Part shown: one piece after another, positions 21,473-39,048 of the stretch
Position numbering within the stretch: position 1 is the stretch's first letter
Layout: every line of letters starts with the position of its first letter
Assembly: GCF_002287505.1 (NCBI RefSeq)
Contig: NZ_CP019688.1
Coordinates: 682,001 to 746,000, forward strand
From: Corynebacterium glaucum
GTDB lineage: Bacteria > Actinomycetota > Actinomycetes > Mycobacteriales > Mycobacteriaceae
Reading direction: 5' to 3'
Length of the DNA: 64,000 bases
The notes under the pieces: model-generated
Told to the model about the DNA's origin: nothing
Databases searched by the model: none
The model's input: the letters and a program-made list of their open reading frames with translations, nothing else
Translations under genes and position numbers: made by a program

Positions 21473-21500
21473 AGCTTAAACGCCTGTCCGTGTCAGGCTA

Positions 21501-23262: not shown

Positions 23263-23274
23263 TTTGGGGTGAGT

Positions 23275-23646: not shown

Positions 23647-24231
23647 TTCGGTACTCCTTCCTCATTTCGGCGGGCAACGTGCTGCTAACTATAACCGGAT
23701 GAGCTCAATAAAGGGGAGCTACTACCCCCGTTTCGAGTAAGAATTTCGGGCATCGACACCTCAGGAACCCCCTTTTTAGTCGAGACTCCCGTACTGAGAC
23801 GGGATACGTCTAGCGTAGCGGCCACCGCTTCGAGAAACCTTTTCTTTCGAACACCCGTCGACTCTGCCAGGCTTGTAGGAAACCCGCCCCGCCACTCGGC
23901 CGGGACCGCAGTGTATACGTGTCGGAAGCCGAGCGCATTTTCTTCGCTTAGAACGTCTCCGGGGCAGCTTAGTGGACCATTTCGAACTAGGCACACCACC
24001 GTCACTGTCGTGTCGTTGTTGAGTCATGGACGGGCATTGTGTCGTCGCGAGAGACGAACCGCTACAGCGAGGGTTCGCACCTTGTCCCAACTCGGGACTC
24101 TGCTGCCACTATTGACGCACCCCTCCAGGCCAAAGCCCCACTTCCAACCCCTGACACCCTCCCGCACCGACCCTCGCCACGACTTCCGAAACGACTCCCG
24201 TCCCGGAACCCAGCCTTGCGACAACCGCGTC
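23647..24231. other. Gene-free stretch of 585 bases with repeated element A
   Basis: It contains one copy of an approximately 80-base intergenic repeat (23791-23873; the other is at 26398-26479). The right third (24080-24231) is C-rich, with words such as ACTTCCGAAACGACTCCCG that recall the 19.5-20.1 kb region. Short ORFs here (for example a 106-codon one on the minus strand at 23685-24005) have no recognisable features. Confidence 0.5.
23791..23873. repeat. Island intergenic repeat, copy A
   Basis: It shares TTTTCTTTCGAACACC and GTCGACTCTGCCAGGCT with copy B, differing by one C between them. A weaker shared left part includes AGCGTAGCG. It lies about 150-230 bases upstream of the HTH-like gene. 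Confidence 0.65.
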
Positions 24232-25647
24232 TCACCACTGGCTCTCGTCCTCTGGCAACCGCTGCTCAAACGCTGCAATCAGCCCACGGTTCTCGTGCTC
24301 GTCGAAGGGGACGGCCATAGGCAAGTCGGTTTCGCCCAGAGCGTTGGTCTTGGTCAGCCGTTCCCTGCACCAGTTGAGCCACTCTTCGGCCTCTGGAACG
24401 CCTTCGAGCGCGTCGAGGTGCTCCTCAATTTCCCGCCGCTCTTTCCAGGCCTCAACGCGCTTGAGAAGCACCTTGTGACACTCACCCTCCCGGTGGTGGA
24501 CACGGGCGAGCTCCGTTGCCTTGTCGAGCCGGCGCTGCCGGCGCTCAGCCTCAATTCGGTCTCGCTCTTCCACCACTGCATACCACTGCTCCCTGCGGTG
24601 GACGTCAGCGAAGAAGTCTCCGAGCACCGAATTCAGCCGCGTCGGCTTCGCAGGGGTGTCGTTACGCCTGGTGAAACCGACAGTGAGAAACACCAGACCT
24701 GTGCCTTCTTTGACGTAGTACTTCGGCATTTCTTTGCCCTTGTTGTACGACCAGCGCAGCGAGTCCTCGTAGGCTTTGACTTCCTTCTTCGTCGGCGGCC
24801 GCTCAACGCTATTTTCGCGCTCGCTGGCCCACACTTCATACGAGCGGTAGTCGGTGTCGAGTGTGACTTTCTCCAGCACCTTCTTTCCCTTGTGGTCCTC
24901 GGTGTCGTGGGCCGTCACACTCCACCCGCGGGCTTCGGCCTCAGTGACAACGACGTGCAAAAGCAACTTTGCGCGCTGTTTGGTCTCTGCGCTGTACCAC
25001 TTAGAGGTTCGCAGAAGCCGGTTGATGGCCGGGTGGAATTTGCGGACCTCAACTTCTCCCCGCAGGACAGGTCCTGGGTCTGGTGACACCCACTCGTCCG
25101 CGTCGAGCAACGCAGCGGTCACCGTCACGGGAGAGTTGAAATGCCACGAGTCGTAGCTCCAGTCGAGCATGAACTCTTTGCCGTCTGGGACAAGGTCCTT
25201 CCGCGGTCCTTTGACCCACTTTTCTACGGGGTCCCAGTCGGCTCTCGCCACGTCGCGGTTTTCTACGCGCCTGACAACCCACCCGCGCTGAGAGGCGACC
25301 AAGTCCGCGAAGAGGTCAGTCACGCGCGTGTCGAGTTCTATTTCGCTTGCAGGTGGCGGCTCTGGTGGAGCGTAGGCCGGCTGGGCGTACACCGTCTCGG
25401 CTGCCGTACCGCGCTTGCGTTTCGGTCTCCGGAGCGGTTCTTTACCTGCCAGCACCCGCTTGCCGCGCTCAGTGACCGTTGCTTGCCAGGTCTTGCCGTG
25501 GCCTTTGACCTTGACGAGCTCGTGGCCTTCGAGCGTGCGGGCGGTGGTTTTGTACGTCGAAGGCACTTCAGGGTCGGTGGGGCACCCGTCAACGACCCAT
25601 TGCAGGACGGTGCGTTGGCGCGGGGTGAGTTCGTTCGCGGCTGGCAT
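24232..25647 (-). CDS. Unknown 471-residue island protein with N-terminal HTH-like domain
   Basis: It begins MPAANELTPRQRTVLQWVVD, which looks like a winged-helix domain to about residue 70. A basic, Pro-rich linker follows (RRPKRKRGTAAETVY), then a large domain with paired Trp motifs (RSYEVWASEREN, LRWSYNKGKEMPKYY). A long charged coiled-coil-like region runs from about 370 to 445 (EERDRIEAERRQRRLDKATE). I do not recognise the family. The ATG at 25647 is preferred over the upstream in-frame start at 25725 because the added residues are low complexity. It shares strand with the DUF4145 gene upstream. Confidence 0.55.
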   Translation of the reverse strand: MPAANELTPRQRTVLQWVVDGCPTDPEVPSTYKTTARTLEGHELVKVKGHGKTWQATVTERGKRVLAGKEPLRRPKRKRGTAAETVYAQPAYAPPEPPPASEIELDTRVTDLFADLVASQRGWVVRRVENRDVARADWDPVEKWVKGPRKDLVPDGKEFMLDWSYDSWHFNSPVTVTAALLDADEWVSPDPGPVLRGEVEVRKFHPAINRLLRTSKWYSAETKQRAKLLLHVVVTEAEARGWSVTAHDTEDHKGKKVLEKVTLDTDYRSYEVWASERENSVERPPTKKEVKAYEDSLRWSYNKGKEMPKYYVKEGTGLVFLTVGFTRRNDTPAKPTRLNSVLGDFFADVHRREQWYAVVEERDRIEAERRQRRLDKATELARVHHREGECHKVLLKRVEAWKERREIEEHLDALEGVPEAEEWLNWCRERLTKTNALGETDLPMAVPFDEHENRGLIAAFEQRLPEDESQW

Positions 25648-25721
25648 GGGTTTATTGTCGCCGGTCGGAACGGGTTGCGCAGCGGTTAGCGGGGCGGGTG
25701 TCGTTTCGGGGGGACCACCCC

Positions 25722-26387
25722 TCAAGACTCGTTTTCGGCGTTTGCGTTTCCCTCAAACTCAAAGGCCATGCGAAGAATCATCTGGGTAAACTCGATGGCT
25801 TTCAACGCGGTAGATTGCCTCACCGATTTCAGCTCGTGAGTGGCTGCATTGCCCCAGAGTCGAATGCTGTCAGCCCAACTGTCCTTGATGCGCTTAGTGA
25901 GAATTCCCTCATTCACCAAAAAATTCACGCACTCTTCGAACTTTGGTGCCCAGCCCCTGTCGTTTTTCTCTGGTAGACCGCAACGAACAGCAGCAGCGAA
26001 GACTATCTTGCGGCACATAAGCACCGCGCTGGTGTAGGCGCCAACAGAGTATGTGAGGTTCGCTTCCTCCCACATCTCTGCAACGTCGCCAGGTAGGTTG
26101 TCGATAGGTTGCTGTTGTGTCCGCGGCGGGTAGATCTCCTCGCCACCACCCTCCCGAAAAATGCTGATTGAAGCTCCGCAGCAATCTTGGCAGACCATCC
26201 AGCGGTACCCGGTTTCAGCGAAGTCGCGCCTGTCGGTGGCCCAGGCGATGTTGACCGTTTTTCCTGCTCCGCACACCGGGCAGGTGATAGCACCCGACTG
26301 TGCGCTATCGTCAGCAAACTCAAATCGTTGGTGTCCTTGGTTAACGTCCAGTTCAAGCAGGGCAAAATTTCTGTAGCCGAGCATCAT
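25722..26387 (-). CDS. DUF4145 domain-containing protein
   Basis: 221 residues. An N-terminal zinc ribbon (ITCPVCGAGKTVNIAW, then VCQDCCGAS) is followed by the DUF4145 helical domain: NLPGDVAEMWEEANLTYSVG, AVLMCRKIVFAAA and WGNAATHELKSV. DUF4145 is a HEPN-like fold often found near restriction systems and other defence genes. AAGGAG precedes the ATG pair at 26387/26384. Copy B of the island repeat lies directly upstream and may contain its promoter. Confidence 0.75.
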   Translation of the reverse strand: MMLGYRNFALLELDVNQGHQRFEFADDSAQSGAITCPVCGAGKTVNIAWATDRRDFAETGYRWMVCQDCCGASISIFREGGGEEIYPPRTQQQPIDNLPGDVAEMWEEANLTYSVGAYTSAVLMCRKIVFAAAVRCGLPEKNDRGWAPKFEECVNFLVNEGILTKRIKDSWADSIRLWGNAATHELKSVRQSTALKAIEFTQMILRMAFEFEGNANAENES

Positions 26388-26397
26388 TCTCCTTCGA

Positions 26398-26479
26398 AAC
26401 GGGAATCGACACGTTAAGCGTAGCGAGCACCCCGACGCGCCTCGTTTTCTTTCGAACACCCCGTCGACTCTGCCAGGCT
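26398..26479. repeat. Island intergenic repeat, copy B
   Basis: It is the partner of copy A at 23791-23873. The best-conserved block is TTTTCTTTCGAACACC to GCCAGGCT (26445-26479). It sits immediately upstream of the DUF4145 gene, 62 bases before the IS element. Confidence 0.65.
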
Positions 26480-26540
26480 AAAAAGCGACACTCGACTCGT
26501 TTTCCGAGACGGTTCGATACGCTTATTCCAGCAAAAGAGA

Positions 26541-27385
26541 GGGTGCTGTTGCAAAGTTGGGCGGAGAGCTGAGACGACCCAGTTTCTCATTTCCTGATGG
26601 CCGCTGCGTGTGGGCGTTCTCAGGCCGTCTCGAAGACCCGGTTGACGATCACCGCGTCCGGATTGGGGTGCCCATAAGCAAACATCGTGCCCTGGGCTTT
26701 CCGTAATGAATGCATCGCTTCCATCCCTTTCAACGTCCGGTAGGCAGACGTCCGATTTTTGAACGCCCCCTTCGGTCCCAGGATTCGTTTCAACCGGCCA
26801 TGATCTCCCTCGAGAACGTTGTTCAGGTATTTCACCTGCCGGTGCTCCACCGTCTGAGGGCAGATTCCCTCCGCCTTCAGCTCGAATATTGCCTTGGCCA
26901 GAGCTGGTGCCTTGTCGGTGTTGATGACCCGCGGGGACCCGGCTGTCGTATTCGATCGCAGGGTCTTGGCCAGGAAACGCTTGGCCGCCGCGACATTGCG
27001 CTTCGGAGAGAGATAAAAGTCCAGGGTCTGCCCACCGGCGGTAATAGCCCGGTAGAGATAGCACCACGTGCCGCCGACCCGAATATAGGTCTCATCCACC
27101 CGCCAGGACCGGGCCTGCCAGTCGGGTACCTGCCGGTACCACCGAGTGTGCTTATCCAGCTCAGGGGCGTATTTCTGCACCCAGCGGTAGATCGTGGTGT
27201 GATCGACTGGCACACCCCGCTCGGTCATCATCTCTTCGAGATCGCGGTAGCTCACGCCGTAGCGGCAGTACCACCGCACCGCCCACAGGATGATGTCACG
27301 GGGGAAATCCCGACCGGAGAAGATGCCCATGGCCGTGATTATTTCACGTCAATCTTCCTACTGCCCCAACTTTGCAACAGCACCC
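26541..27385 (-). mobile_element. Complete IS6-family element (IS1628-like)
   Basis: 845 bases bounded by perfect 20-base inverted repeats: GGGTGCTGTTGCAAAGTTGG at 26541-26560 and its complement at 27366-27385. It contains one intact transposase gene. The 8-base flanks (AAAAGAGA and TGCACAGC) differ, so this is not a simple insertion; IS6 elements form cointegrates and adjacent deletions. The right end truncates a relaxase gene. The IS name is a resemblance. Confidence 0.85.
26620..27330 (-). CDS. IS6-family transposase
   Basis: 236 residues with the IS6/IS240 layout: an N-terminal helix-turn-helix (SYRDLEEMMTERGVPVDHTT) and a DDE catalytic core, with Asp in WRVDETYIRVGG, Asp in VINTDKAP, and Glu in NNVLEGDHGRLKR. 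It is intact, unlike the other two copies at 32.2-33.1 kb. It catalyses replicative cointegrate transposition of its element. Confidence 0.9.
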   Translation of the reverse strand: MGIFSGRDFPRDIILWAVRWYCRYGVSYRDLEEMMTERGVPVDHTTIYRWVQKYAPELDKHTRWYRQVPDWQARSWRVDETYIRVGGTWCYLYRAITAGGQTLDFYLSPKRNVAAAKRFLAKTLRSNTTAGSPRVINTDKAPALAKAIFELKAEGICPQTVEHRQVKYLNNVLEGDHGRLKRILGPKGAFKNRTSAYRTLKGMEAMHSLRKAQGTMFAYGHPNPDAVIVNRVFETA

Positions 27386-28380
27386 TGCACAGCAAGGTCA
27401 TCCAACAGCGCCAGGCGTTGCACGGTCTTGCCTTCAAGATTGGTGGGGTCGTAACCGGCATCGCGCAGTTCCTGCACCCACCACTGCTCGTCATGCAGGT
27501 CGGTGGGCTTCTTGTCAGGGCGTTGGTGCGTCCATGCGATGCCCTGCATCCGCGCCGTCACGACCGGGCCGAGAACTTCGCCAGGATGCGCGGCTTCCCA
27601 CTTGACTTCAAGCCGGTCAAGGTTGCGCCTGATCTGTGCTGAGCGCTTCGACATGACCGCGTTGAACGACTCCAACTCGACTACTTCACCGGATGCGGCG
27701 TCGAGGGTCAGACCGTGTTCGGCGAGCGCCCGCACGAGCTGCGGGTGCGCAGCAATCACCGCAGTGCCCAACGCGCGGATCGCACCCTGCTGCTTGAACA
27801 GCGCGGCGGTGCCCAGCGCCCGCCACTTCCCAGCGGTGAACACCCTCGTGCCGATCTGCATGTGGATATGCCGGTGCGGATCACCCGCCCGAGAAGTCTT
27901 GTGCCGGATACCGACCACCTGCATCTGTTCGATCGGCACGACCTCCCGCGCCTCACGCGGCCCGACCCTCGTCACGGAGTGCTGACCGAACCATCGCCGT
28001 ATCTCCGCCAGCGCGTCCTGCTGCGCGGCGTCGAGTGCCTCGGAGACTCCGGGATGGAGGGCGGTGGCGACCGACAGGCTCTTGGGGGCGTTGATCGTCA
28101 TCTCCGCGAACAACGGCGACCCGTTCGTCCCCTCAGCGGCCGCACGTGGGGTACCCATCGACTCGCCCGTGATCGGGTTGATCCAGTCCACCCAGCCCTC
28201 GTACTCATCCGCTGTCAGGGAACGGGCGGCGGTGACCTCGCCGCTGGCATCGAGCACCGTGTATTCGGCCACGGCGTCGTCCGCGCCGAGGTAGTACTTA
28301 TCGGCGCGGGAGCGGTCGGCCTCGACATAGCGGCGCGCGGCAGCACCAGAGCCGCGGAACAAGATCACCCCGCCCTTCAT
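27358..28380 (-). pseudogene. MobF/TrwC-type conjugative relaxase, truncated by the IS element
   Basis: The N-terminal relaxase domain is preserved: GSGAAARRYVEADRS, then the Tyr pair in DKYYLGADD, TINAPKSLSVATAL, and the metal-binding His triad in GDPHRHIHMQIG. MobF relaxases run to 1000 residues or more with a helicase half. Here the reading frame enters the IS right end after about 330 residues and stops at 27358. The start MKGGVILFRG at 28380 follows GGAGG. It indicates that the segment derives from a conjugative plasmid; it cannot be functional for full transfer. Confidence 0.8.
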
Positions 28381-28492
28381 TCTGGCCTCCTCATGAGTCG
28401 TCTCATGAGGGAGGTGCGCACCACGGCCCCGCCGTGGCATACGTGCATCCAGTAGTTAGGCGTCAGCAGGTGGAAAGGGCGAGACGCAGCAG

Positions 28493-28521
28493 GTCGGAGA
28501 CTCGTAAGGCGAGTCTGCGAC
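28493..28521. repeat. Inverted repeat upstream of the relaxase, oriT candidate
   Basis: GTCG-G-AGACTCG (28493-28504) pairs with CGAGTCT-G-CGAC (28510-28521) around the loop TAAGG, 11 of 12 positions. It lies about 115 bases upstream of the relaxase start, where oriT hairpins of MobF plasmids are often found. A nic site cannot be identified. Confidence 0.35.
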
Positions 28522-28597
28522 GCGGGTACTTGCAGTGGGGCGCGCGGCTGTCAGACGGACGGAGTGGAGAAACGCGGCTCGTGGTGGTGCCTGGGCG

Positions 28598-29206
28598 CTA
28601 AGGCTTTGACGTTCCCTTGGATGTGGCGAGCAGCGTCCGTGCAACGGTGACGAGGTGTGCCAGGTCTTCGTATGCGGCCCCGTCTCTGGCCTGGACGGAC
28701 ATGCCCTGAATCAGGGCTCCGATAGTGCGAGCGAGTCCTGTGACATCGGTCGTCTCAGGGAGTTCACCGTCAGCGATGGCGTCGGTCATGCGCTGGCGGA
28801 GGCCGGTGAGGGCTTGGTCTCGTTCTGCTCGGCAGATTGCTGCGGCGGCCTCGGCGTCCTGCCCCGTGGCGAGCAGCCCGGTTGACACCAGGCATCCAAG
28901 GCCGGGCTCGGTCGTGAACTCGCGGGCGGCTCGGTCGAGGTACTCGATGACAGCGTCGGCGAGGGGGATGTCCGGTCGGATGCCGAAGCCGTACTCCTCC
29001 TGGTAGAGCCGCACCGCTCGTTTGAAGAGGCGTTCCTTGGAGTCGAACGCCCGGTAGAGCTGCGGTGCTGTCAGCCCGGTCGCCTCCTGTAACGCGGTCA
29101 TGCTCGCACCCTCGTAGCCCCGTTCCCAGAACACCATGAGGGCACGGTGGAGTGCCTGCTCTGGGTCGAACGTCCGTGGGCGTCCTGCCTTGCGCATGGT
29201 TTCCAT
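28598..29206 (-). CDS. TetR/AcrR family transcriptional regulator of the MFS cassette
   Basis: A 202-residue regulator. The HTH lies at about residues 34-55 (SMTALQEATGLTAPQLYRAF), then a C-terminal domain with GLGCLVSTGLLATGQDAEAA. ATG 29206 is used; Met4 at 29197 is an alternative. It is divergent from an SDR-MFS-oxidoreductase operon, with palindromic sequence between them, which suggests local repression of that operon. Confidence 0.85.
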   Translation of the reverse strand: METMRKAGRPRTFDPEQALHRALMVFWERGYEGASMTALQEATGLTAPQLYRAFDSKERLFKRAVRLYQEEYGFGIRPDIPLADAVIEYLDRAAREFTTEPGLGCLVSTGLLATGQDAEAAAAICRAERDQALTGLRQRMTDAIADGELPETTDVTGLARTIGALIQGMSVQARDGAAYEDLAHLVTVARTLLATSKGTSKP

Positions 29207-29232
29207 AGTGACTGCTATGATACTCTAAGCCC

Positions 29233-29247
29233 GATTACGTAACAATC
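29233..29247. promoter_or_regulatory. Palindromic sequence between tetR and SDR genes
   Basis: GATT-ACGTAAC-AATC, overlapping TTACGTAA at 29235-29242, lies just before the SDR ribosome binding site. It is a probable operator of the divergent TetR. Confidence 0.4.
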
Positions 29248-29261
29248 ACTACGGAGGAATC

Positions 29262-29477
29262 ATGACCCGATCCACAGCTCTCATCACCGGCGCATCCCGA
29301 GGCATCGGCGCTGCCACCGCAGCAGCGCTCGCCCGCGACGGCGCCGCGCAGGTCTCCGCGTTCGGCGGGATCGGCACCCCCAAGGACGTCGCCGACATCA
29401 TCAGTTTCCTCGCCAGCGATCGCGGGCGCTGGGTCACCGGGCAGACGATCGACGCCACCGGCGGCTCCAGCCTCTGA
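29262..29477 (+). pseudogene. Short-chain dehydrogenase with a large internal in-frame deletion
   Basis: The 71 residues join the SDR N-terminus (TALITGASRGIGAATAAALA, the NAD-binding loop) directly to the SDR C-terminus (GGIGTPKDVADIISFLASDR, then WVTGQTIDATGGSSL). SDRs are about 245 residues; the whole centre with the Ser-Tyr-Lys catalytic residues is missing, so no reductase activity is possible. GGAGG precedes the ATG, and the MFS gene follows after 11 bases, so the short ORF may still serve to start the operon. Confidence 0.8.
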
Positions 29478-29488
29478 GCCCGCACGAA

Positions 29489-30718
29489 ATGAACATGACC
29501 AGAACCGAAACCTCTGTCCACTCCCATCCTGTACGTCCTGGCCTCGCGCTGGCGGGGTTTGTGCTGCTGGTGTTCTGCACCGCCAGCGCCGAATACCTCG
29601 TCGCGGGAGTCCTCCCGCAGCTCGCGGCCGATGTCTCGGTCTCCATCGCAGCAGCGGGCCAGACCGTGACCGCCTACGCGCTCGGTGTTGCCATCGGCGG
29701 GCCGATCGTGACCGTGCTGACCGCGAAGCTGCCGCGCAAGGGGCTCGCCATCGGGCTCGGGGTGCTGTTCATCGCGGGCACGGTGCTGACCGTTCTCGCG
29801 CCATCGTTAGCGTGGATCATCGTCGGCCGCGTGGTCTCCGCGTGCAGCCAGGCCACGCTATTCGCCATCAGTCTCACGACTGCGACCGCCCTGCTCGGAG
29901 CGGAGAAACAGGGCCGGGCGATCGCGATCGTCACCTCCGGGCTCACGGTCGCTACCGTGCTGGGCGTGCCCCTCGGGGCATTCCTGGGTGGCGGCACGAA
30001 CTGGAGGCTCCCGTTCGCGGTGATCGCCGCCGCCGCGATCCTTGCCACCCTGCTGCTCGTATGGACGATGCCTCGCACTCCCGCGCCGACCACCGACGTG
30101 CGCGATGAGATCCGCGCCCTGCTGCGCGGCCCGGTACTCCTGGCCGTGGCGACCACGGTGATCGGTTTCGCCGGAGTCAGCGTGGTCTTCACCTACCTCG
30201 TGCCGCTGCTGACCGACGTGACCGGCATCGCAGCAGGAGTGATCCCCGCACTGCTGCTCGCATACGGCATCGGCGGCTTCATCGGGAACCTCATCGCCGG
30301 TCGCCTCACCGACCTCTCGCTCGGCAAGACACTCGTCGGGGTGTTCCTCGCCCTCGTCGTCACACTGGCCGCGTTCCCACTGCTCGCGGGATACCGGGTG
30401 CCGATGATCGGACTCGTGCTGATCCTGGGCTTGCTCTCCACCGCGACAATCGCCCCCTTGCAGTCGCTCGTCCTCCGCCACGCGGGAGCCGCGCCAACCC
30501 TGTCGCTGGCGGTCAACGTCGGCGCGTACAACCTCGCCATCGCGATCGGCTCCGCCCTCGGCGGCGTCGGTGTCGCCGCAGGGCTCTTGCAATGGGGCGG
30601 CTTCGGCGGGGCCGGTTTCGCCATCCTCGGCCTGATCCTCGCGACCGTTGCACTCCGCGCTAAGCCACGACCTGACACGACCCCCACTGATTCCGCGACC
30701 GAGGAGACACACGCATGA
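29489..30718 (+). CDS. MFS drug:proton antiporter-type transporter (DHA1)
   Basis: A 409-residue protein with 12 hydrophobic segments. The second segment region shows ASAEYLVAGVLPQLAADVSV and the loop 2-3 stretch GGPIVTVLTAKLPRKGLAIG, typical of AraJ/Cml-like DHA1 exporters. The substrate is unknown; sugar or drug export are both possible. ATG 29489 or 29495 may be used. It overlaps the following oxidoreductase gene by ATGA, so they are translationally coupled. Confidence 0.85.
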   Translation: MNMTRTETSVHSHPVRPGLALAGFVLLVFCTASAEYLVAGVLPQLAADVSVSIAAAGQTVTAYALGVAIGGPIVTVLTAKLPRKGLAIGLGVLFIAGTVLTVLAPSLAWIIVGRVVSACSQATLFAISLTTATALLGAEKQGRAIAIVTSGLTVATVLGVPLGAFLGGGTNWRLPFAVIAAAAILATLLLVWTMPRTPAPTTDVRDEIRALLRGPVLLAVATTVIGFAGVSVVFTYLVPLLTDVTGIAAGVIPALLLAYGIGGFIGNLIAGRLTDLSLGKTLVGVFLALVVTLAAFPLLAGYRVPMIGLVLILGLLSTATIAPLQSLVLRHAGAAPTLSLAVNVGAYNLAIAIGSALGGVGVAAGLLQWGGFGGAGFAILGLILATVALRAKPRPDTTPTDSATEETHA

Positions 30719-31617
30719 AGATCGCACCCATCACCAGCTACGGCGGCCCCGAAGTCCTGACCGTCCAGGACGCGCCGATCCCGGAACCCGGCACGGGCGA
30801 AGCTCTGGTCGCAGTGATCGCCTCCACGATCAACCCGGTTGACGTGAAGACCCGCACGCCTGGCACACCGCAACAGGCTGGCCGCTTCCCGGCGGTGCTC
30901 GGCTGGGAATTGGCGGGCATCGTCATTACCGCGCCCATCGAGTCGGGCTGGTCGCCGGGCGATCGGGTCATTGCCATGCACCCACCCCGGCCGGACGGGT
31001 CGGGAAGCTGGCAGCAGTACGTCACGATCCCCGCCCAGTTCCTCGCGCCTGCGCCGGAGTCCGTCGATCTGCCAACGGCGGCGACCTTACCGCTTGCTGC
31101 GTTGACCGCCGACCAAGCGCTGCAACGGCTCGACCTCAAAGACGGTGAGCGGCTGCTTATCACAGGTGCCGCAGGCGGTGTCGGTGGCATGGCGGTGCAG
31201 CTCGCCGCACGCGCAGGGGTCACGATTGCGGGGCTGGTCTCACGTCCGGAACACGAGGCGGCAGTCCTCGAACTCGGGGCCGCATCCGCGCACTCGAACC
31301 CGACGAGCATGAGTGCGTTCGATGCAATCTTCGATACCGCAGGCATCTTCGACCACCCTCACCTGCTGCGCGAGGGAGGCAGGCTCGTCACCATCAGCGA
31401 CGACACCATCCCCGAAACTCTTGAACAACGTGCAGTGATCGCGGTGCATAACTACGTCCAGCACGACTCGCAACGGCTCCGACAACTCTCTGACCTTGTG
31501 GACTCGGGCAAGCTCACACTGCGCGTCGCCGAACAGTACCCGCTTGCTCTGATCGAGCAGGCACATAGAAGCGCCGAGGTAGGCGGTCTACTCGGCAAAG
31601 TCGTCCTCACGACGTAG
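30715..31617 (+). CDS. NADP-dependent quinone-oxidoreductase-like protein (MDR superfamily)
   Basis: 300 residues. The N-terminal GroES-like domain has ASTINPVDVKTRT and FPAVLGWELAGIV; the Rossmann half has LLITGAAGGVGGMAVQLAAR. No zinc-binding cysteines are seen, as expected for quinone-reductase-type MDR proteins. It is coupled to the MFS gene by a 4-base overlap. Together with TetR and the former SDR it forms a transferable cassette, perhaps for detoxification. Confidence 0.85.
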   Translation: MKIAPITSYGGPEVLTVQDAPIPEPGTGEALVAVIASTINPVDVKTRTPGTPQQAGRFPAVLGWELAGIVITAPIESGWSPGDRVIAMHPPRPDGSGSWQQYVTIPAQFLAPAPESVDLPTAATLPLAALTADQALQRLDLKDGERLLITGAAGGVGGMAVQLAARAGVTIAGLVSRPEHEAAVLELGAASAHSNPTSMSAFDAIFDTAGIFDHPHLLREGGRLVTISDDTIPETLEQRAVIAVHNYVQHDSQRLRQLSDLVDSGKLTLRVAEQYPLALIEQAHRSAEVGGLLGKVVLTT

Positions 31618-31705
31618 GGCAATACGCATGTGTCGAGCTATTCCAGCTGGTGCGGGTCGAGGTGCTCACAGAGCGTCTACTCCATCCAGGTTGTGCGCAG
31701 TGGAG

Positions 31706-31867
31706 TCAACGGAGCAGCCAGGACTTCCCTACCGCCAGCAACTCGAAGTGTGACTGAGCGCCGGGTGCCCTCGTCCATTTGACGCCCAAGTGCTCGGCCA
31801 GCCGTACCGGGGTGTAATCCCCGGCGCACATCAGTCGCCCGTATCGACGCACAACGCGTATCCGCAT
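31706..31867 (-). CDS. Possible small ORF of unknown function
   Basis: 53 residues starting MRIRVVRRYGRLMCAGDYTP and ending in HFELLAVGKSWLLR. The composition looks protein-like rather than low complexity, but no ribosome binding site is obvious. It may be a remnant of a larger plasmid gene, since the same frame is open further upstream for several codons. Confidence 0.25.
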   Translation of the reverse strand: MRIRVVRRYGRLMCAGDYTPVRLAEHLGVKWTRAPGAQSHFELLAVGKSWLLR

Positions 31868-31960
31868 CAACAGCTCTATGCGCGGCGCAGGGTGAGCGGC
31901 GCGTCTGCTGACGGGTCGCCTTTGTAGGGATGCGATGGTGCGCGTTCTGGCGTGGGTTCC

Positions 31961-31992
31961 GGTGGCGCACCTCCTTCACGGGAGGTGCCACC
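31961..31992 (+). promoter_or_regulatory. Hairpin sequestering the ribosome binding site
   Basis: GGTGGC (31961-31966) pairs with GCCACC (31987-31992), and ACCTCC (31969-31974) with GGAGGT (31981-31986), leaving a 2-base bulge and a 6-base loop. The GGAGG ribosome binding site is inside the stem and GTG 31993 follows directly. Translation would need the stem to be opened. Confidence 0.5.
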
Positions 31993-32169
31993 GTGACCGA
32001 ACACACCCCACCCACGACAGGCGACGATGCCCCAGCCCCGGATGGCTCGCCGCGCCACGGGTTCGAGACGCCAGAGGGCTTGCGTGCCCTGCTGATCCGG
32101 TTGCACGAGGCCAGGCCTGGGGCCTGGCGTGGTGACCGTGAAGCAGCGGAACTGATGCGGTACACGGCA
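31993..32169 (+). pseudogene. 5' fragment of a plasmid gene truncated by an IS6 element
   Basis: It starts GTG with GGAGG upstream and encodes an acidic Pro-rich start, then a helical stretch (LRALLIRLHEARPGAWRGDR, EAAELMRYTA) before running into the IS end at 32170. I do not recognise the family. About 59 residues remain. It is probably part of the same plasmid as the relaxase and replicase fragments. Confidence 0.5.
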
Positions 32170-32358
32170 GGGTGCTGTTGCAAAGTTGGGGCAGTAGGAA
32201 GATTGACGTGAAATAATCACGGCCATGGGCATCTTCTCCGGTCGGGATTTCCCCCGTGACATCATCCTGTGGGCGGTGCTGTGGTACTGCCGCTACGGCG
32301 TGAGCTACCGCGATCTCGAAGAGATGATGACCGAGCGGGGTGTGCCAGTCGATCACAC
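32170..32358 (+). mobile_element. IS6-family element fragment, opposite orientation to the complete copy
   Basis: It starts with the same inverted repeat GGGTGCTGTTGCAAAGTTGG and contains the first 45 codons of the transposase from ATG 32225. It is nearly identical to the complete copy at 26541-27385; one difference seen is GTGCTGTGG for GTGCGGTGG. It breaks off at about 32358, where another element begins. Confidence 0.8.
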
Positions 32359-33079
32359 GGTGCTGTTGCAAACTTCAGGTGGAGAGCCGTGACGTCCCAG
32401 TCTTCATCCTCTGATGCTGGCTGCGGGTCGGCGTTCTCAGGCAGCCTCGAACACCCGGCTGACGATCACCGCATCCGGGTTCGGTTGCTCGTAGGCAAAC
32501 ATCGCGCCCTGGCCTTTCCGTAATGAGTGCATCGCTTCCATCCCTTTCAACGTCCGGTACGCCGAGGTCCGGTTTTTGAACGCCCCCTTCGGTCCGAGGA
32601 TCCGTTTCAGCCGCCCATGATCTCCTTCAATGACGTTATTGAGGTATTTCACCTGCCGGTGTTCCACGGTCTGCGGGCAGATTCCCTCTGACTTCAACTC
32701 GGCGATTGCCCTGGCCAGGGAGGGTGCTTTATCGGTGTTGATCACCCGCGGGAACCCGGTTATCGTGTTCGACCTCAGGGTCTTGGCCAGGAAACGCTTC
32801 GCTGCGGCGACATTACGCTTTGGGGACAGGTAAAAATCCAGGGTATGCCCACCCGCGGTGATGGCCCGATAGAGGTAGCACCACTTTCCCCCGACCCGGA
32901 TATAGGTCTCGTCCACCCGCCAGGACCGGGCCTGCCAATCCGGGACTTGTCGGTACCACCGGGTCTGCTTGTCCAGCTCAGGAGCATATTTCTGGACCCA
33001 GCGGTAGATGGTGCTGTGATCGACCGGTACGCCGCGTTCGGTCATCATTTCTTCCAGATCGCGGTAGCTGAGCCCGTAG
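32359..33079 (-). mobile_element. Second IS6-family element type, 5'-truncated
   Basis: It begins with GGTGCTGTTGCAAA directly at the break of the previous fragment. It is a diverged relative of the complete copy (for example AACTTCAGG instead of AAAGTTGG after the terminal repeat). The transposase (32437-33079, minus) lacks its first 20 or so residues; the element ends inside the codons for YGLSYRDLEE, where plasmid replicase sequence starts. Confidence 0.8.
32437..33079 (-). pseudogene. IS6-family transposase, N-terminally truncated
   Basis: The catalytic core is intact: WRVDETYIRVGGKW, VINTDKAPSLARAI and NNVIEGDHGRLKR. The N-terminus from the HTH upward is replaced by sequence read from the replicase fragment in the opposite sense. 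The open frame continues to 33363 but those extra codons are not transposase. Confidence 0.8.
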
Positions 33080-33402
33080 CTGGGAGGGCCACAACGTCCG
33101 AACGTAAGGCATTGGCCACGATGGGCCGTAGAGGCGGGCAGAAGGCCGCACAGCGATGGGAGACCGACCCCGAGGGCGACTACGCCCAACGACAGCGCGC
33201 CACGATGAAGAAAACACACCGGCGCAAGAAGATGCAGGGGCAGACCACGCGCGCGCGGGTGCAACTGTTCATCGGCGAGGCCTTCGCCGACACCGGGAAG
33301 ATACCCACGCGCCGGGAGATTATGCGCGAGACGGGCCTCTCGGAGGCCACGGTGAAGCGCCACGTTCGCTCACTCCGGGAGGACGGCCTCATGCCGGACT
33401 AG
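33080..33402 (+). pseudogene. C-terminal fragment of a corynebacterial plasmid replicase (RepA)
   Basis: The fragment encodes ALATMGRRGGQKAAQRWETD, a basic segment, and a C-terminal HTH (KIPTRREIMRETGLSEATVK then RHVRSLRED). This resembles the C-terminus of replicases of the pNG2/pCG1 plasmid family as I remember them. The N-terminal primase/replicase part is missing, removed at the IS junction near 33079. It is direct evidence that plasmid DNA was captured here. Confidence 0.6.
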
Positions 33403-33811
33403 GGGGGGGGTCACGCCGTAAGCAATATACAGTTCCCCTGGAATTGCAAGAAACCCGTGCGGTATCGGCCCAAAACTCACTCTACCAAACGCCTTGCGTA
33501 CCCCATGTTCGATTGAAGCCGTCTCCGAGACGTTCAGTGCGCCGAAGCCGCTATTTTTGTTGAGTTCCCCGGAGTCGGCCAAAATCGCCAGTTACCCCCG
33601 GAATAGGTCAATCAAATACCCCCGGACGGGGTCATCCGAGCGTGCAAACATGCACAAACGTCCGCCACTCCTGTCGACGTCGTTCCGGCCACCCGCGTCG
33701 ACACATCAAATCGGAACGACTTGCGCCTGCCAGGGGGTGTACTTTTGCGAGTGTGCGAGCGTTTTAGCCATGCGAAACAACAAAACTTTCACCAGCACAC
33801 ACCCGCAAGGC
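33403..33811. other. Gene-free stretch of 409 bases at the right plasmid/island junction
   Basis: It starts with a G8 run after the replicase stop. It holds two related words TTACCCCCGGAAT and ATACCCCCGGACGG near 33590-33630 and a palindromic site at 33639-33656. ORFs crossing it show no natural protein sequence. Confidence 0.5.
33639..33656. repeat. 18-base site AGCGTGCAAACATGCACA, inverted relative to 35642-35659
   Basis: The core GTGCAAACATGCAC is nearly palindromic. The exact 18-base reverse complement occurs at 35642-35659, on the other side of the HTH and first recombinase-like genes. Confidence 0.7.
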
Positions 33812-34153
33812 TTACGGGTAGTCGTACCCGCCCTTCGACTTCAACCCCTTTCGCGACGGAGCTTTTTGGTACGGCCACATGGGCATGTGGACTGCGGCTT
33901 CGACGGCAGCAACTGTGTCGGCAGACGGCCACACGTCACCTGTGACCCAGCGCGAGAGCACCGAGGGGTGCAGCCCGCACCTGCGGGCAAAGTCCGACCT
34001 GTTTTTAGCCCAGCCCTCGGCAACGTAGTACTCGACGGTTTTCACGAGGTTGTCCCGCAATGCCCAAGCCTTGCGGTAGACCTCCGGCACCGTCTCGACG
34101 TCCACATCGGGCCACGTCTCGTATGCGCGCCTGGGTGGTGGGAACTGGGCCAT
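33812..34153 (-). CDS. Small XRE-like HTH regulator of the recombinase module
   Basis: 113 residues starting MAQFPPPRRAYETWPDVDVE. A clear HTH is seen at about residues 55-78 (NRSDFARRCGLHPSVLSRWV, TGDVWPS), like Cro/CI-type regulators; the C-terminus is basic. The start at 34153 is chosen for the natural protein beginning and a GGCAGG just upstream; the longer open frame looks non-coding. It is divergent from the first recombinase-like gene with a CTACC/GGTAG palindrome in its promoter. Confidence 0.65.
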   Translation of the reverse strand: MAQFPPPRRAYETWPDVDVETVPEVYRKAWALRDNLVKTVEYYVAEGWAKNRSDFARRCGLHPSVLSRWVTGDVWPSADTVAAVEAAVHMPMWPYQKAPSRKGLKSKGGYDYP

Positions 34154-34163
34154 ACCTGCCACG

Positions 34164-34178
34164 CTACCGCGTGGGTAG
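34164..34178. promoter_or_regulatory. CTACC-GCGTG-GGTAG inverted repeat upstream of the HTH gene
   Basis: A 5-base perfect inverted repeat 11 bases upstream of the ATG of the XRE-like gene. Autoregulation is likely for such genes; the site is a candidate. Confidence 0.35.
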
Positions 34179-34299
34179 TGCGAACCGAAGCGCAAACAAG
34201 CAATGGGGGTACTGGCTTCGGTGTCACGCCCATTTCCGCCGCGCACCCCGTCTCGTTCACCCGTTACGAGTTCCGCTTCGTGACCCGAGGCGGTGCAGC

Positions 34300-35577
34300 A
34301 TGACGCTCACCAACCAGCAGCGCGAAGAAGTTGTGCGCCGTATTGAAAACTACGTCCCCAACGGCACCGACGACGGCGCTTGGGAACACATTGCTCATTT
34401 CGTCCGTGAGACTGCGAAGAAGGCTACTGTCGAGTCGGCAACCGGGTCGAAGGCATTCGTTGCGGACGCGAAGTCGAGCGTTGACGTGCGTGGTGTACTG
34501 CGTGTGCTGACCCGAGCCTCCGCGAGGGCGTTCAACTCCGGGCGTGTGCTCGCCGTTGACACGGTGCTTAGTGAAGCGAACGTGAACGCAGTGCTTGCGG
34601 GTTTGGAGTCGAGGAACTCGGTCACTCGCGACGGCTACCTCTACCGGCTCCTGCGCGAGGCAATCAACGGCCAGGAGTTGTCGTTGTACCACCGACGGGA
34701 CATCGAAAAGCCGCCGGCACAGCCGTACGAGCCGAACGACTGGCAGCGCCTGCACCACTGGGTCGTTTCACAGTCCACCACGCTTCGTCGCGAGCGTGCG
34801 GCGGTCATTGTCGGTCTTGGCCTGGGTGCCGGCATTGGCCCAGAAGTCGCTCTCGTGAAAGCTCGTGACGTGACGCTCGACGCGAACGGCGTGGTGTGGG
34901 TTGCTGTGCCGCATCGTGTCGCTGAGGGCGCGGCGCCCGCCATTCCTGTGGCGGCGGCACTGGCTCGAAGTGTGTGGGAAGTGGTGCAAGAGCGTGAGCC
35001 CGACGAGTTGCTGCTCGGTGGCGCAGAGAGCGACGTTCGAGAAATTACGAAACGGTTGAACCTAAACCGTTCGTTCAGGGTCGAACTCGACAGGTTGCGT
35101 GCGACGTGGGTGCGCTCGGTGGTGCGCCACTTACCACGTGAGACTGCGGCGGCCGCGGTGGGCACTGACCTCATCAACTTTCGTCGCCTTGAGAAAACCG
35201 CGCGTCTTGACCCGGCCACACCCGACACGCTTGCCGACAGGCTCGACGTGTTGGCAGACCCGCTTCGTGACTGGCCGGCGCTGCGGTTGTCTGAGGCCGC
35301 ACCTGTGGCTGACGTGGAGGAAGGCACCGGTTCCGCCCCGGTCTCCGACGCAGTGGTCGTGACGCTTCCCGGCACGGCCAGCAACAACACGGACGAGGCC
35401 GAACCGGAGCGTGAAACCGAGACACCAGAGCCACAGACCGCCGTCGCCGACCTCGACGCGCACCGCCCAAAGCAGGCACCCCGCTCAATTTCGAGCAAAC
35501 TGCCTGCCCCCGAAGAGGGTCGTCTTACTGACTTTGCCCGCGGACCGAACCCCGGTACGGAACGTCGTGGGTGGTAG
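34300..35577 (+). CDS. Degenerate tyrosine-recombinase-like protein, first paralogue
   Basis: 425 residues. An N-terminal helical domain (about 1-120) with RVLTRASARAFNSGRVLAVD precedes a core resembling the catalytic domain of tyrosine recombinases. GLGAGIGPEVALVKARDVTL stands where those have G-L-R-x-x-E, so the first catalytic Arg is missing. Box II corresponds to LRATWVRSVVRHLPRETAAA. From about residue 340 there is an acidic, Thr/Pro-rich tail. It is clearly paralogous to the next gene, which looks less degenerate. A structural or regulatory role in recombination is possible. Confidence 0.55.
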   Translation: MTLTNQQREEVVRRIENYVPNGTDDGAWEHIAHFVRETAKKATVESATGSKAFVADAKSSVDVRGVLRVLTRASARAFNSGRVLAVDTVLSEANVNAVLAGLESRNSVTRDGYLYRLLREAINGQELSLYHRRDIEKPPAQPYEPNDWQRLHHWVVSQSTTLRRERAAVIVGLGLGAGIGPEVALVKARDVTLDANGVVWVAVPHRVAEGAAPAIPVAAALARSVWEVVQEREPDELLLGGAESDVREITKRLNLNRSFRVELDRLRATWVRSVVRHLPRETAAAAVGTDLINFRRLEKTARLDPATPDTLADRLDVLADPLRDWPALRLSEAAPVADVEEGTGSAPVSDAVVVTLPGTASNNTDEAEPERETETPEPQTAVADLDAHRPKQAPRSISSKLPAPEEGRLTDFARGPNPGTERRGW

Positions 35578-35641
35578 ACATGTTGACCTGCGAAATTGCG
35601 GTGTTTGTCCAGGCAGAACATTCGGGAACACGCCGTATTCG

Positions 35642-35692
35642 TGTGCATGTTTGCACGCTGTGAACCTTGACGTCGTGTGCAAATTTGCACAC
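35642..35692. promoter_or_regulatory. Pair of palindromic sites between the two recombinase-like genes
   Basis: TGTGCATGTTTGCACGCT (35642-35659) is the reverse complement of the site at 33639-33656. GTGTGCAAATTTGCACAC (35675-35692) is a perfect 18-base palindrome with the same half-site GTGCA. Centres are about 34 bases apart, roughly three helical turns. They lie 80-130 bases upstream of the second recombinase-like gene. Confidence 0.7.
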
Positions 35693-35771
35693 ACTGGGGC
35701 TAACTCTTTCCACCATAGGAGTAGCCCACGCCACCACCACCTTGTGTGTGGGCGGACAAGGACAAACGAAT

Positions 35772-36764
35772 ATGACCACCACAACCACCCGCAAGGACGT
35801 CCACCAGGTCATTGCGGCCTACACCCCGAAAGTTGTCGAACCCCACGAATGGGACGTTGTCGCACCGTTTGTGCGCGAGCACGTCGCTGCTGTCGCCAGT
35901 GCTGTCTGGTCGGCTGACCAGTGCCGAAACGCCCTTCGACTCGTGACCCGTCTCGCAGTGCATGTGTTCAACGCTGGGCGAGACGTCAGCGTTGCAGCCG
36001 TGTTCAGCGAGGGTGCTATCAACGCATTTTGCCACCAGGAGCTCGACACCGCGGCAACGCACGTCCGTGGCACGTCACGGGCGACGCTGCGCCGCATTGC
36101 CAAGCAGGTCAACCCGAACTTCGACGGACCGCGTCAGCGTCCCGAGTACGGCAACGAGTCGAAGGCCGCACCTTACACCGAAGCAGAAGTGCTTGGCGTA
36201 AAGACCTGGGCTGACGCTGAGCACACCGAGTCTCGCCGCCAGCAGGCGAACCTGCTGCTTGCACTTGCACTTGGCGCAGGACTTCGCTCCGGCGAGGTCG
36301 CAAACCTCACGGCCGGCGACATTGAGACCGACGCACAGGGCACCGTGGTCTACCCGTGGGGCTACCGCGGGGCGGACAAACGGTTCGTGCCTGTCGAGAG
36401 CGAGTGGGCAGGCGTTGTCGCTCAGGCCGTCGAGAACGCAGCAAGCCGTACAGAGTGGCTGTTTCGGCCAATGCGGACAACCGCCGACTCGGGCACCGTT
36501 GCGACGTTTACGAAACGCTCTCCGCACCGGGGCACCGTGCTCGACATGGCCCGGGCGCGGACGACGTGGCTTGTCAACCAAGTGAAAAAGGGCGTGCCGG
36601 AGACCGCGGTCGTTGAGGCAGCGGGGTTGACCGACTTGCAGCATTACCGGCAGTTCTTGGTCGAACCGACACACGTTTCGGCACGCGAGGCGAGAAGTCT
36701 GCTTTCCGGGACGTTGCACGAGACGCCGAAGCGAGGGCTGACGCTCATTCACGGCAGCGCGTAG
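35772..36764 (+). CDS. Tyrosine-recombinase-like protein, second paralogue
   Basis: 330 residues starting MTTTTTRKDVHQVIAAYTPK. The N-terminal helical domain matches the first paralogue (ALRLVTRLAVHVFNAGRDVS). The core has GAGLRSGEVANLTAGDIETD, a good match to the recombinase Arg-I box with Arg at about 170. Box II reads MARARTTWLVNQVKKGVPET instead of H-x-x-R, and a Tyr (HYRQF) sits at about 293 where the nucleophile would be. The pattern is incomplete but suggestive. It lies between its paralogue and the DDE-like gene on the same strand. Confidence 0.6.
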   Translation: MTTTTTRKDVHQVIAAYTPKVVEPHEWDVVAPFVREHVAAVASAVWSADQCRNALRLVTRLAVHVFNAGRDVSVAAVFSEGAINAFCHQELDTAATHVRGTSRATLRRIAKQVNPNFDGPRQRPEYGNESKAAPYTEAEVLGVKTWADAEHTESRRQQANLLLALALGAGLRSGEVANLTAGDIETDAQGTVVYPWGYRGADKRFVPVESEWAGVVAQAVENAASRTEWLFRPMRTTADSGTVATFTKRSPHRGTVLDMARARTTWLVNQVKKGVPETAVVEAAGLTDLQHYRQFLVEPTHVSAREARSLLSGTLHETPKRGLTLIHGSA

Positions 36765-36866
36765 GCGCTTTTCACACAAACTTTTAACCCCATAAAACAC
36801 CTGGTCGCGACCCAGGGTGAGTTTTCTATTGCCAAAAACTTTCCGCTTGAAAAGGAGGTGACAACG

Positions 36867-38723
36867 ATGTCGAAGGGACTTCGCACACGCAAGTTTGCGC
36901 CCGCGAAGAAAGGCCACCGCCACAACATTCGCCTTGTGGAGGAGCGCCGCGTGTCGTACGCGAACATGCAGTTGGCCCAGCGCATTGTTGACACCTCCGG
37001 CGCGGTTGGTCTCGTGGACTCCTGGCGCGTCGCTGACGGGCTGAAAACCGACAAGGGCGGCCGCCCGCCTGAGGTGGACACCCGCGCGGCGCTGACGCTG
37101 TGGACCTACCAGGCAGTCACACAGTCGCCACAGCTCATTGCCCACATGGCAAAGGCCGTCGCCTTCGGTTTGGAAGGTAAGGGCTGGGAACTTCTGGGGC
37201 TCACCCCATTCGACTGGGACGAAGCCGACCCGAAGGCGCATTTCGACACCTACATGACGTGGTACAAGCGTATTGCAGCCTGCCTCGACCGCGTTCGCGC
37301 GACCATTGAGCCCTTCCCGGAGGTGAGCAAGAAGCGCCGCTACACCGTTGAGGAGTGGGTGCCGTTCATTGCCTACTACGACGAAAAGAAGGGCAAGAAG
37401 GAAGTCTTAGCCAAAGTCGAGGAACGCAAAGCCCGCGGCGTCGAACTCGTCAACCGCCTCGTGTGGGCGACTGTGGAACTCATGGACTCCGAGGCCTTCG
37501 CCAAGTGGAACGGCGACATTGCCGTGGACGGCACCATTATTCCGGTGTCGAAAAACGGCAACCCGAACAAGAAGGATATGCTCTCTGGCAAGACCAACAA
37601 GCACCGCCTTGTCGCCTCGACCCCGACACTTGGCTGGCACGCCAAGGAAGGCGACCACGACGGCGAGAACACGAAGAAGACCGCGACACACACCTGGGGG
37701 TTGGAAGCCACTGTTGTCGCCATGTGCGGTGAGGGTTTTGCCGAGCCGGGTGGCGCGCCGGGGCTCATTCTCGGGGTGACTGGCGGAGTACCTGCTGTGG
37801 CACCCTCGCAGCGCGTCTTCGAGTCGCTAAAGAACCTCACCGACCGTCCGGAACTCCCGCGCCGGCATTTCATTGCTGACCGCCTGTACTCGCCGGGTCA
37901 GAACCCGGTGAAGTTCCAAATGCCTATGCGCAAACTGGGCTACGGGTTCGTCGCTGACATGCGCCGTGACACCCGTGGTGTGCAGACTATTACGACGTCT
38001 GGTGCGCCCATTGTGGACGGTACTGCGTACTGTCCTGCAATTCTCAACATGCCGCGCCTGCTCGACCCGTACACCGCTTGGGAAAAGGGGCAACTGACCG
38101 ACCAGCAGTTCTCAAACCTGCTTCAGGCTCGCAAGCGTCTCGCGCTCGCCCGTTATGGCACGAAGCCGAACAAGAAGGGCGACGTGCGCCTGGGCTGTCC
38201 TGCCCGCGCAGAGGGCGCGGAAATTACCTGTCCGCTGGTCCCGCCTGCCGAGGAAGGCAAGAAGAAGGCCGGCTTCCAAAAAGACGAGCTGACCGACTCC
38301 GAGGTGCCCTCGAAGGCTGCATGCCCCAAGGTGTGCCAACAGCGCACCGTGACGCTGAAGAACACCGCCGAGGACGGTGCGAAGTTCCTTCAACACGGTC
38401 CGGCTTTTATGACCGCCGAGTGGCGTAAAGAGTACGGCCGCCGCAACACCATTGAGTCGCGCAACGCCATGCTCAAGAACGGTTCCTACCAGGGTGCCGG
38501 CGACGTCACCACGCGCCTTATGCGTGGCTGGGCAGCGCAAATGCTGTGCATGGCCATGGCCGCGGTGGGGGTGAACCTCGCCATGCTCGACGCTGCTGCC
38601 TGGTCTCGTCCACACACGGGTCAGAAGCCGACTCCGCCTCCGCCGCGGGGCGGCCGCAAGCCCAGCTCGGACGACATTGAGCAATGGAAGTTGGGCGACA
38701 ACGCACCGCCGAAGGCGGCATAA
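36867..38723 (+). CDS. Large DDE-transposase-like protein
   Basis: 618 residues with an excellent AAAGGAGGTG at 36851-36860 before ATG 36867. The DDE-type order is visible: Asp in DIAVDGTIIPV (about 220), Asp in HFIADRLYSPGQ (about 337), and Glu in RRNTIESRNAMLKNG (about 530). Between the last two lies a Cys-rich insert (LGCPARAEGAEITCPL, AACPKVCQQ) likely to bind zinc. The plan resembles IS1182/IS4-type transposases but is longer. No terminal inverted repeats were identified around it. With the two recombinase-like genes it forms a module next to tRNA-Arg. Confidence 0.6.
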   Translation: MSKGLRTRKFAPAKKGHRHNIRLVEERRVSYANMQLAQRIVDTSGAVGLVDSWRVADGLKTDKGGRPPEVDTRAALTLWTYQAVTQSPQLIAHMAKAVAFGLEGKGWELLGLTPFDWDEADPKAHFDTYMTWYKRIAACLDRVRATIEPFPEVSKKRRYTVEEWVPFIAYYDEKKGKKEVLAKVEERKARGVELVNRLVWATVELMDSEAFAKWNGDIAVDGTIIPVSKNGNPNKKDMLSGKTNKHRLVASTPTLGWHAKEGDHDGENTKKTATHTWGLEATVVAMCGEGFAEPGGAPGLILGVTGGVPAVAPSQRVFESLKNLTDRPELPRRHFIADRLYSPGQNPVKFQMPMRKLGYGFVADMRRDTRGVQTITTSGAPIVDGTAYCPAILNMPRLLDPYTAWEKGQLTDQQFSNLLQARKRLALARYGTKPNKKGDVRLGCPARAEGAEITCPLVPPAEEGKKKAGFQKDELTDSEVPSKAACPKVCQQRTVTLKNTAEDGAKFLQHGPAFMTAEWRKEYGRRNTIESRNAMLKNGSYQGAGDVTTRLMRGWAAQMLCMAMAAVGVNLAMLDAAAWSRPHTGQKPTPPPPRGGRKPSSDDIEQWKLGDNAPPKAA

Positions 38724-38813
38724 GCCTCCACAGGCCACCGGCTGAATCTTGAGTTTCAAGGACTTCATGCCGAGTGGCCTACAGGTCGTGCAGCAACACC
38801 AGTTTCAACACAA

Positions 38814-38860
38814 AAAACCGGCCGACAAAGCCTTTTTCAGGCTCAAAACCGGCCGGTTTT
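38814..38860 (+). terminator. Terminator after the DDE-like gene
   Basis: AAAACCGGCC (38814-38823) pairs with GGCCGGTTTT (38851-38860). An inner AGCCT/AGGCT stem is nested, and AAAACCGGCCGGTTTT at 38845-38860 is itself palindromic. T runs follow on both strands, so it is a probable bidirectional terminator. Confidence 0.75.
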
Positions 38861-38975
38861 CGCGTTGTCGGGGATAGTCTCTCCAAAAGTTACCGAACTT
38901 TGAAAACCCGGGTTAACCTGGAAGGAGTTTCCTGAATTGAACGGAAAAGTTAACCGAAACCCCCCAGGACAAGAG

Positions 38976-39048
38976 CGCCCCAGAGAGGAATCGAACCTCC
39001 GACACCGGCTTTAGGAGAGCCGTGCTCTATCCACTGAGCTACTAGGGC
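38976..39048 (-). tRNA. tRNA-Arg (anticodon CCT)
   Basis: 73 bases. Acceptor 5' GCCCTAG pairs with CTGGGGC. The D arm is GCTCAGTGGATAGAGC. The anticodon stem CGGCT/AGCCG has loop CTCCTAA, giving anticodon CCT. The T arm contains GGTTCGATTCC. CCA is not encoded. Its 3' end faces the island, a common integration site for mobile elements. Confidence 0.95.

Follow-up and report, generated by a model that had tools for sequence, protein, structure and literature searches.

What kind of element would combine two tyrosine-recombinase-like proteins with a DDE-type protein? The question is raised by a locus of Corynebacterium glaucum lying within contig NZ_CP019688.1 (positions 682,001 to 746,000, a stretch of 64,000 nucleotides analysed as a whole and called the window here). 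An initial annotation had placed an XRE-like helix-turn-helix (HTH) regulator, two paralogous proteins of tyrosine-recombinase (YR) plan and a 618-residue DDE-like protein at 33812–38860, beside a tRNA-Arg gene. All of these parts were recovered using Pfam, AlphaFold2 and ARAGORN. Their suggested identity as a YR element with a DDE partner was not: 5-bp duplications, inverted ends and empty insertion sites show instead a DDE transposon accompanied by YR-fold partners. That this is a homing transposon, leaving aside any role of the YR-fold proteins, we regard as nearly certain. The fuller reading, in which a homing DDE transposon with a Tn5-fold transposase uses YR-fold proteins as target selectors, is the one we favor, with somewhat more confidence than doubt.

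The extent of the element was determined by comparison with genome G892, which is listed as the same species and does not carry the transposase. G892 has empty counterparts of both insertion sites in our genome, so that the comparison of strains with and without the element, proposed as a check at the outset, delimits both copies. The window island measures 19,462 bp (19503–38964) including its cargo, rather than the five kilobases assigned initially. CAGGA is present once in the G892 empty site and on each flank of the island (19498–19502 and 38965–38969), as a 5-bp target-site duplication (TSD). The left end (19503–19522, plus strand) starts with GGGGCATTCAGTAAACT and resembles the left ends of other islands; the right end (38945–38964, plus strand) finishes with AGTTAACCGAAACCCCC. 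The ends are imperfect inverted repeats starting with GGGG, 13 of 17 positions being identical between GGGGCATTCAGTAAACT on the left and GGGGGTTTCGGTTAACT on the right, read inward. Beyond the right TSD lies an intact tRNA-Arg(CCT) gene (ARAGORN; 38975–39048, minus strand), whose T-loop motif begins at a distance of 26 bp from the end of the element. The unit was thus inserted as a block just 3' of this gene, and the HTH, YR-A, YR-B and 618-residue protein genes occupy its tRNA-proximal (right) end. A left boundary at 33594 was discarded, since homology between the two copies starts there only because their cargo differs; ACCCCC, which occurs as a short direct repeat at 33594 and the right end, was abandoned as an attachment core once the empty sites were found.

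The second copy in the same genome is 15,560 bp long (G000:C1:1029494-1045053), lies beside tRNA-Arg(CCG) and is flanked by ACAAC on each side. Its DNA is 94.7% identical to that of the window island across 5.4 kb, and the two islands share with G021 the left-end sequence found near 19500 and a Schlafen-type gene. An apparent right end of an older, different member is seen to the left of the second copy (G000:C1 ~1029440-1029493; L158 ~16950-17005) and is present in the empty-site genome too.

We extended these observations to related loci with a search for matching ends bordered by a 5-bp repeat. Nine of 47 loci scored 14–18 of 20, compared to 0 of 141 shifted controls above 13. Scores of 12–13, which fall inside the control range, were given by the window island, the second copy, G877, L141, L145, L146 and L147; the ends of these were placed by empty sites (window, second copy), by a recognised left-end sequence (G877) or by a tandem copy (L147), and those of L141, L145 and L146 are tentative. 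For the window, the automatic top hit was a chance CCCCC match tied at 13 and was rejected. This search found no ends in G021, G059, G138 and most distant loci. Stacked elements with an identical duplication between them were found at one site in G078 (CTTAA) and at the glnA element of G880 (AGCCC).

Relatives insert in the same manner, at a fixed distance from other tRNA, tmRNA and glnA genes. For tRNA insertions, 12 of which could be delimited, the distance from the T-loop motif to the element end is 26 bp in 10 cases, 27 bp in one and 20 bp in one. TSD sequences vary (CAGGA, ACAAC, CGAGC, CTTAA, CGGGC, CGATG and others), and therefore the neighbouring gene, not the cut site, sets the position of insertion. 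In a first set of 62 loci, a convergent tRNA or tmRNA gene lies within 400 bp of 43 of the 65 transposase places, compared to 1 of 775 for the other long open frames of those loci, a control that covers the first set only. A second set, mostly remnants and distant members, added 37 places from 38 further loci (L177 gave no hit at 1e-4; L193, L199 and L212 were left out as repeats of L042, L041 and L049), giving 62 of 102 places, all in Actinomycetota, with such a gene. The tRNAs targeted are those for Arg, Leu, Pro, Ser, Ala, Glu, Gly, Val, Met and Tyr. Among the 40 places with no tRNA or tmRNA gene within 400 bp are glnA insertions, one CRISPR array, contig ends, tandem or decayed copies and others; the frame overlaps a tRNA gene at L192 and L209, and a tRNA gene lies 0.8–1.6 kb away at L022, L148, L182 and L186. 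The glnA lineage accounts for eight places in seven loci (L028, L145, L146, L147 twice and L151; by sight L188 and L210). Its elements end 7 bp past the glnA stop codon in all five cases measured, and Pfam confirmed glutamine synthetase for two of the glnA-adjacent targets. Domestication of these genes, which had been offered as an alternative, is unlikely because there are two copies in the genome, tandem copies elsewhere and many insertion sites.

The 618-residue protein (P0003; 36867–38723, plus strand) is predicted to be a Tn5-fold transposase acting by excision and reinsertion of the element. AlphaFold2 modelled it with a mean pLDDT of 75.6, and the model matched Tn5 transposase 1mm8_A with Z 16.5 and rmsd 4.5 over 305 aligned residues; Foldseek alone gave E 6.9e-3. 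Tn5 chains score far above TnsB chains (Z 16.5 versus 7–10), although the catalytic core is common to both, and a fold search against viral models gave weak transposase matches only. In the family alignment, the predicted catalytic residue D221 is kept in all 12 rows reaching that position, and D338 and E530 in all 13; in a further member, L024, Glu replaces D338. The long insert between D338 and E530, placed in a predicted Tn5 fold, suggests a cut-and-paste mechanism. Conservation of C444, C455 and C490 in 12 of 13 rows makes the zinc-type insert proposed for this protein plausible. None of 13 family members matched a transposase model in Pfam or NCBIfam, curated IS4-type models included. The libraries searched do not name this mobile-element family, whose novelty had been raised as a possibility.

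YR-A (P0001; 34300–35577, plus strand) and YR-B (P0002; 35772–36764, plus strand; Pfam Phage_integrase, 1.3e-6) are paralogues with 26–32% identity (E about 1e-16). YR-A had no match in Pfam or NCBIfam. As modelled by AlphaFold2 (mean pLDDT 61.5, with residues 1–300 better than the rest), it has a predicted Cre/Xer fold (1pvr_B; Z 14.0, rmsd 5.3, 245 aligned), and structures of MrpR (8a0a, 8bj6, 8bpz) are among the fold matches. A residue table bore out what had been noticed of the active sites: YR-A has lost the first catalytic Arg, and also has no Tyr at the expected place, while YR-B keeps GLRSGE and a late Tyr (Tyr292) and has Ala instead of the box-II His, the box-III His being absent as well. 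Across 64 aligned YR frames (four of them counted twice, L034 = L139 and L036 = L149), 29 have the first Arg, 62 the second Arg and 45 a Tyr close to its expected position. The box-II His is found in 0 of 64 and a box-III His or Trp in 0 of 64, and the complete R, H, R, H/W, Y set is absent; a new R-x-R-x-T-W signature stands in place of box II.

These proteins travel with the transposase. A genome search found the order YR–YR–DDE repeated across genomes, 51 of 57 near-complete transposases have YR frames upstream, and two or more such frames are present in 25 of 47 in the first set. Within the genus, YR-B relatives occur in 33 genomes, of which 30 carry the transposase too, compared to 8 expected. 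YR-A is the fastest-diverging protein; it outpaces neighbouring genes in divergence in the window, L014, L013 and L137, with 84.6% identity between the two copies in our genome versus 99.5% for the transposase. Palindromes around TGCAAA..TGCA occur near the YR genes, one form being common to closely related copies. A repeat search and pattern scan located one around TGCAAACATGCA (33639–33656) and related ones at 35642–35659 and 35673–35694, in the spacer between the YR genes; they are possible binding sites.

The transposon matches none of the named families with which it was compared. With Tn5 and IS4-type elements it shares the predicted fold and a DDE layout with an insert before the Glu, but it has no Pfam or NCBIfam transposase match, chooses its sites strongly and duplicates 5 bp, whereas the Tn5 target duplication is 9 bp. 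Like Tn7 and Tn7-like elements it is a cargo-bearing DDE transposon that duplicates 5 bp and inserts past the 3' end of a conserved gene without harm. However, a Tn5-fold transposase is predicted here where those elements have TnsA/TnsB, and the ends are GGG..CCC rather than the TGT..ACA of Tn7. No Pfam match to AAA+ (TnsC/TniB) or TniQ/TnsD was found among the scanned open reading frames, a part of the total, of the window island, the second copy and a 6.9-kb element of G109. GGGG ends and a 5-bp TSD are features of the Tn3 family, in which TnpA is about 1000 residues long, in contrast to the 618 residues, with no Pfam match, seen here. From Tn554, RIT and other YR-driven elements it differs in that none of the 64 frames has a complete YR catalytic set.

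The combination of YR-fold and DDE proteins, which the initial annotation did not recognise, has one published precedent. TnsF of Tn6022 is described in PMC10293859 as a tyrosine-recombinase protein that has lost its activity and steers Tn6022 to comM, with TnsA, B, C and TniQ also required. Going by that description, not by sequence, the two systems are alike in pairing a DDE transposon with an inactivated YR-fold protein. They differ in that Tn6022, as presented there, targets comM and uses TnsA/B/C/TniQ, whereas our element has two YR-fold paralogues, a predicted Tn5-fold transposase and targets at tRNA, tmRNA and glnA 3' ends.

How might such an element find its sites? In the mechanism that we propose, the Tn5-fold transposase would excise and reinsert the element. 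YR-A and/or YR-B would bind the end of the target gene, namely the T-arm and acceptor region in tRNA genes or, in the glnA lineage, the conserved 3' end of the coding sequence. The bound YR protein would then position the transposase at a set distance, similar to TnsD or TnsF in Tn7-like elements. The HTH protein (P0004; 33812–34246, minus strand, start codon uncertain; Pfam HTH_3, E 1.3e-5) probably governs expression. Insertion leaves the tRNA gene intact; the site can therefore be reused, and elements accumulate beside the tRNA. Selection of the target by the YR-fold proteins is, on balance, probable, because they are conserved beside the transposase, have lost catalytic residues, have a DNA-reading fold and have a precedent in TnsF. 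The earlier suggestion that a recombinase serves as an accessory factor stands to the extent that the YR proteins look like accessory factors, a role that we infer.

Several observations weigh against this reading. Some places have neither a tRNA nor glnA adjacent (e.g. L020, L024, L046 and L133), and one element (L141 11560-12275, G966) lies inside a type I-E-like CRISPR array. The G892 empty site of the second copy has one AAC triplet beyond what a 5-bp TSD predicts; a 5-bp TSD at that copy consequently needs a one-triplet difference between strains. The repeat and end search gave no TSD for G021, G059 and G138. On the protein side, R, R and a nearby Tyr are present in 25 of 64 YR frames, YR-B-type proteins often keeping both Arg residues and the Tyr, and 28 of 64 have a box-II residue that some active recombinases may tolerate; judged by these residues, some YR-B-type proteins may still be active. 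An identity table of five related elements showed no clear match of YR-A to target, and the G862 element has a good TSD yet no YR-A relative. The table does not support YR-A as the only target reader, though we keep this idea open. Finally, we infer rather than observe binding of the target by YR proteins, and the transposase itself could choose the site. As to the L141 element, CRISPR repeats are found on both sides of it, with a likely CCACA duplication.

The last objection leads to an alternative that we consider unlikely, in which the transposase of the homing DDE transposon recognises the target and the YR-fold proteins are repressors or regulators. MrpR, which passages of PMC10516654 describe as the master repressor of SPbeta, a DNA-binding protein with a YR fold and no catalysis, shows that this fold can be turned to repression, and it is among the fold matches of YR-A; as described there, however, it is a phage repressor outside any transposon. 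The palindromes that lie between the two YR genes and next to the HTH gene would suit regulators as well. But the element already encodes an HTH regulator, and two YR paralogues kept in many lineages seem much for regulation alone.

Could the YR-fold proteins instead resolve cointegrates of the DDE transposon, like TnpI or TnpS/TnpT in certain members of the Tn3 family? The GGGG ends and 5-bp duplication recall that family, and the palindromes in the YR-A/YR-B spacer could serve as a resolution site. The predicted Tn5 fold and its long insert speak for cut-and-paste, however, and the YR catalytic residues are incomplete, so that we think this quite improbable. An integrative element driven by tyrosine recombinases, with the DDE protein as passenger or accessory, is more improbable still: YR-B keeps two Arg and the Tyr, and a tRNA 3'-end location is typical of YR integrases, but insertion occurs ~10 bp outside the tRNA with inverted ends and a 5-bp duplication of varying sequence, the far ends of the two islands with empty sites carry no tRNA 3'-end repeat, and the box-II and box-III His are missing in all aligned frames. 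We rejected a classic integrase island on account of the TSD, the inverted ends and the dead catalytic residues.

Returning to the homing transposon with YR-fold selectors, a bolder proposal, to which we give slightly less than even chances, is that an Actinomycetota transposon superfamily unrelated to Tn7 evolved gene-end homing independently. It would consist of a Tn5-fold transposase aimed, with no ATPase switch, by a catalytically dead YR pair; the pair would read the T-arm region that almost every tRNA gene shares, and in one lineage it would have been redirected to glnA. If this holds, a Tn5-type transposon acquired homing to safe gene ends independently of Tn7, and evolution has turned tyrosine recombinases into targeting components more than once, TnsF being the other case. 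The conserved T-arm would be one address repeated over many tRNA genes and species. Such a shared address would explain why islands, some with restriction–modification or Schlafen-type genes, pile up beside actinobacterial tRNAs without being classic integrase islands. A transposase with two selectors would also be a small, programmable-looking system useful for DNA insertion.

Of 242 genomes of the genus, 59 gave hits to the transposase, in many cases to remnants only; hits numbered 24 among 394 genomes sampled from the class and 14 among 296 sampled from the phylum, the three sets overlapping. Most of the named relatives belong to Corynebacterium, and they also include Acidipropionibacterium and one Acidimicrobiia bacterium. 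Distant relatives lie on Streptomyces plasmids, annotated as hypothetical proteins. Phage records gave no match to the transposase. The family was not found described in the open-licence PubMed Central literature, and a description elsewhere is possible.

The cargo of the window island includes a protein with a Schlafen AlbA_2 domain (20199–21155, plus strand; Pfam PF04326, 5.3e-11), in the segment common to the second copy and G021. Other cargo (22222–31617; Pfam) comprises DUF3039, DUF4145, TrwC relaxase, TetR, MFS transporter and zinc-type dehydrogenase genes. The TrwC-type relaxase gene is at 27358–28440, and the DUF4145 protein (25722–26459) weakly matches the PD-T7-4 defence family (6.4e-6). 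An IS6-type insertion-sequence transposase (32437–33363, minus strand; Pfam DDE_Tnp_IS240, 4.2e-45) also lies inside the island, as do inverted 66-nt arms (32292–32357 and 33015–33080). The second copy carries a type III restriction–modification pair, named by PADLOC, and a DUF4379 protein (L013 2136-9670), and its restriction–modification segment is found again in related islands.

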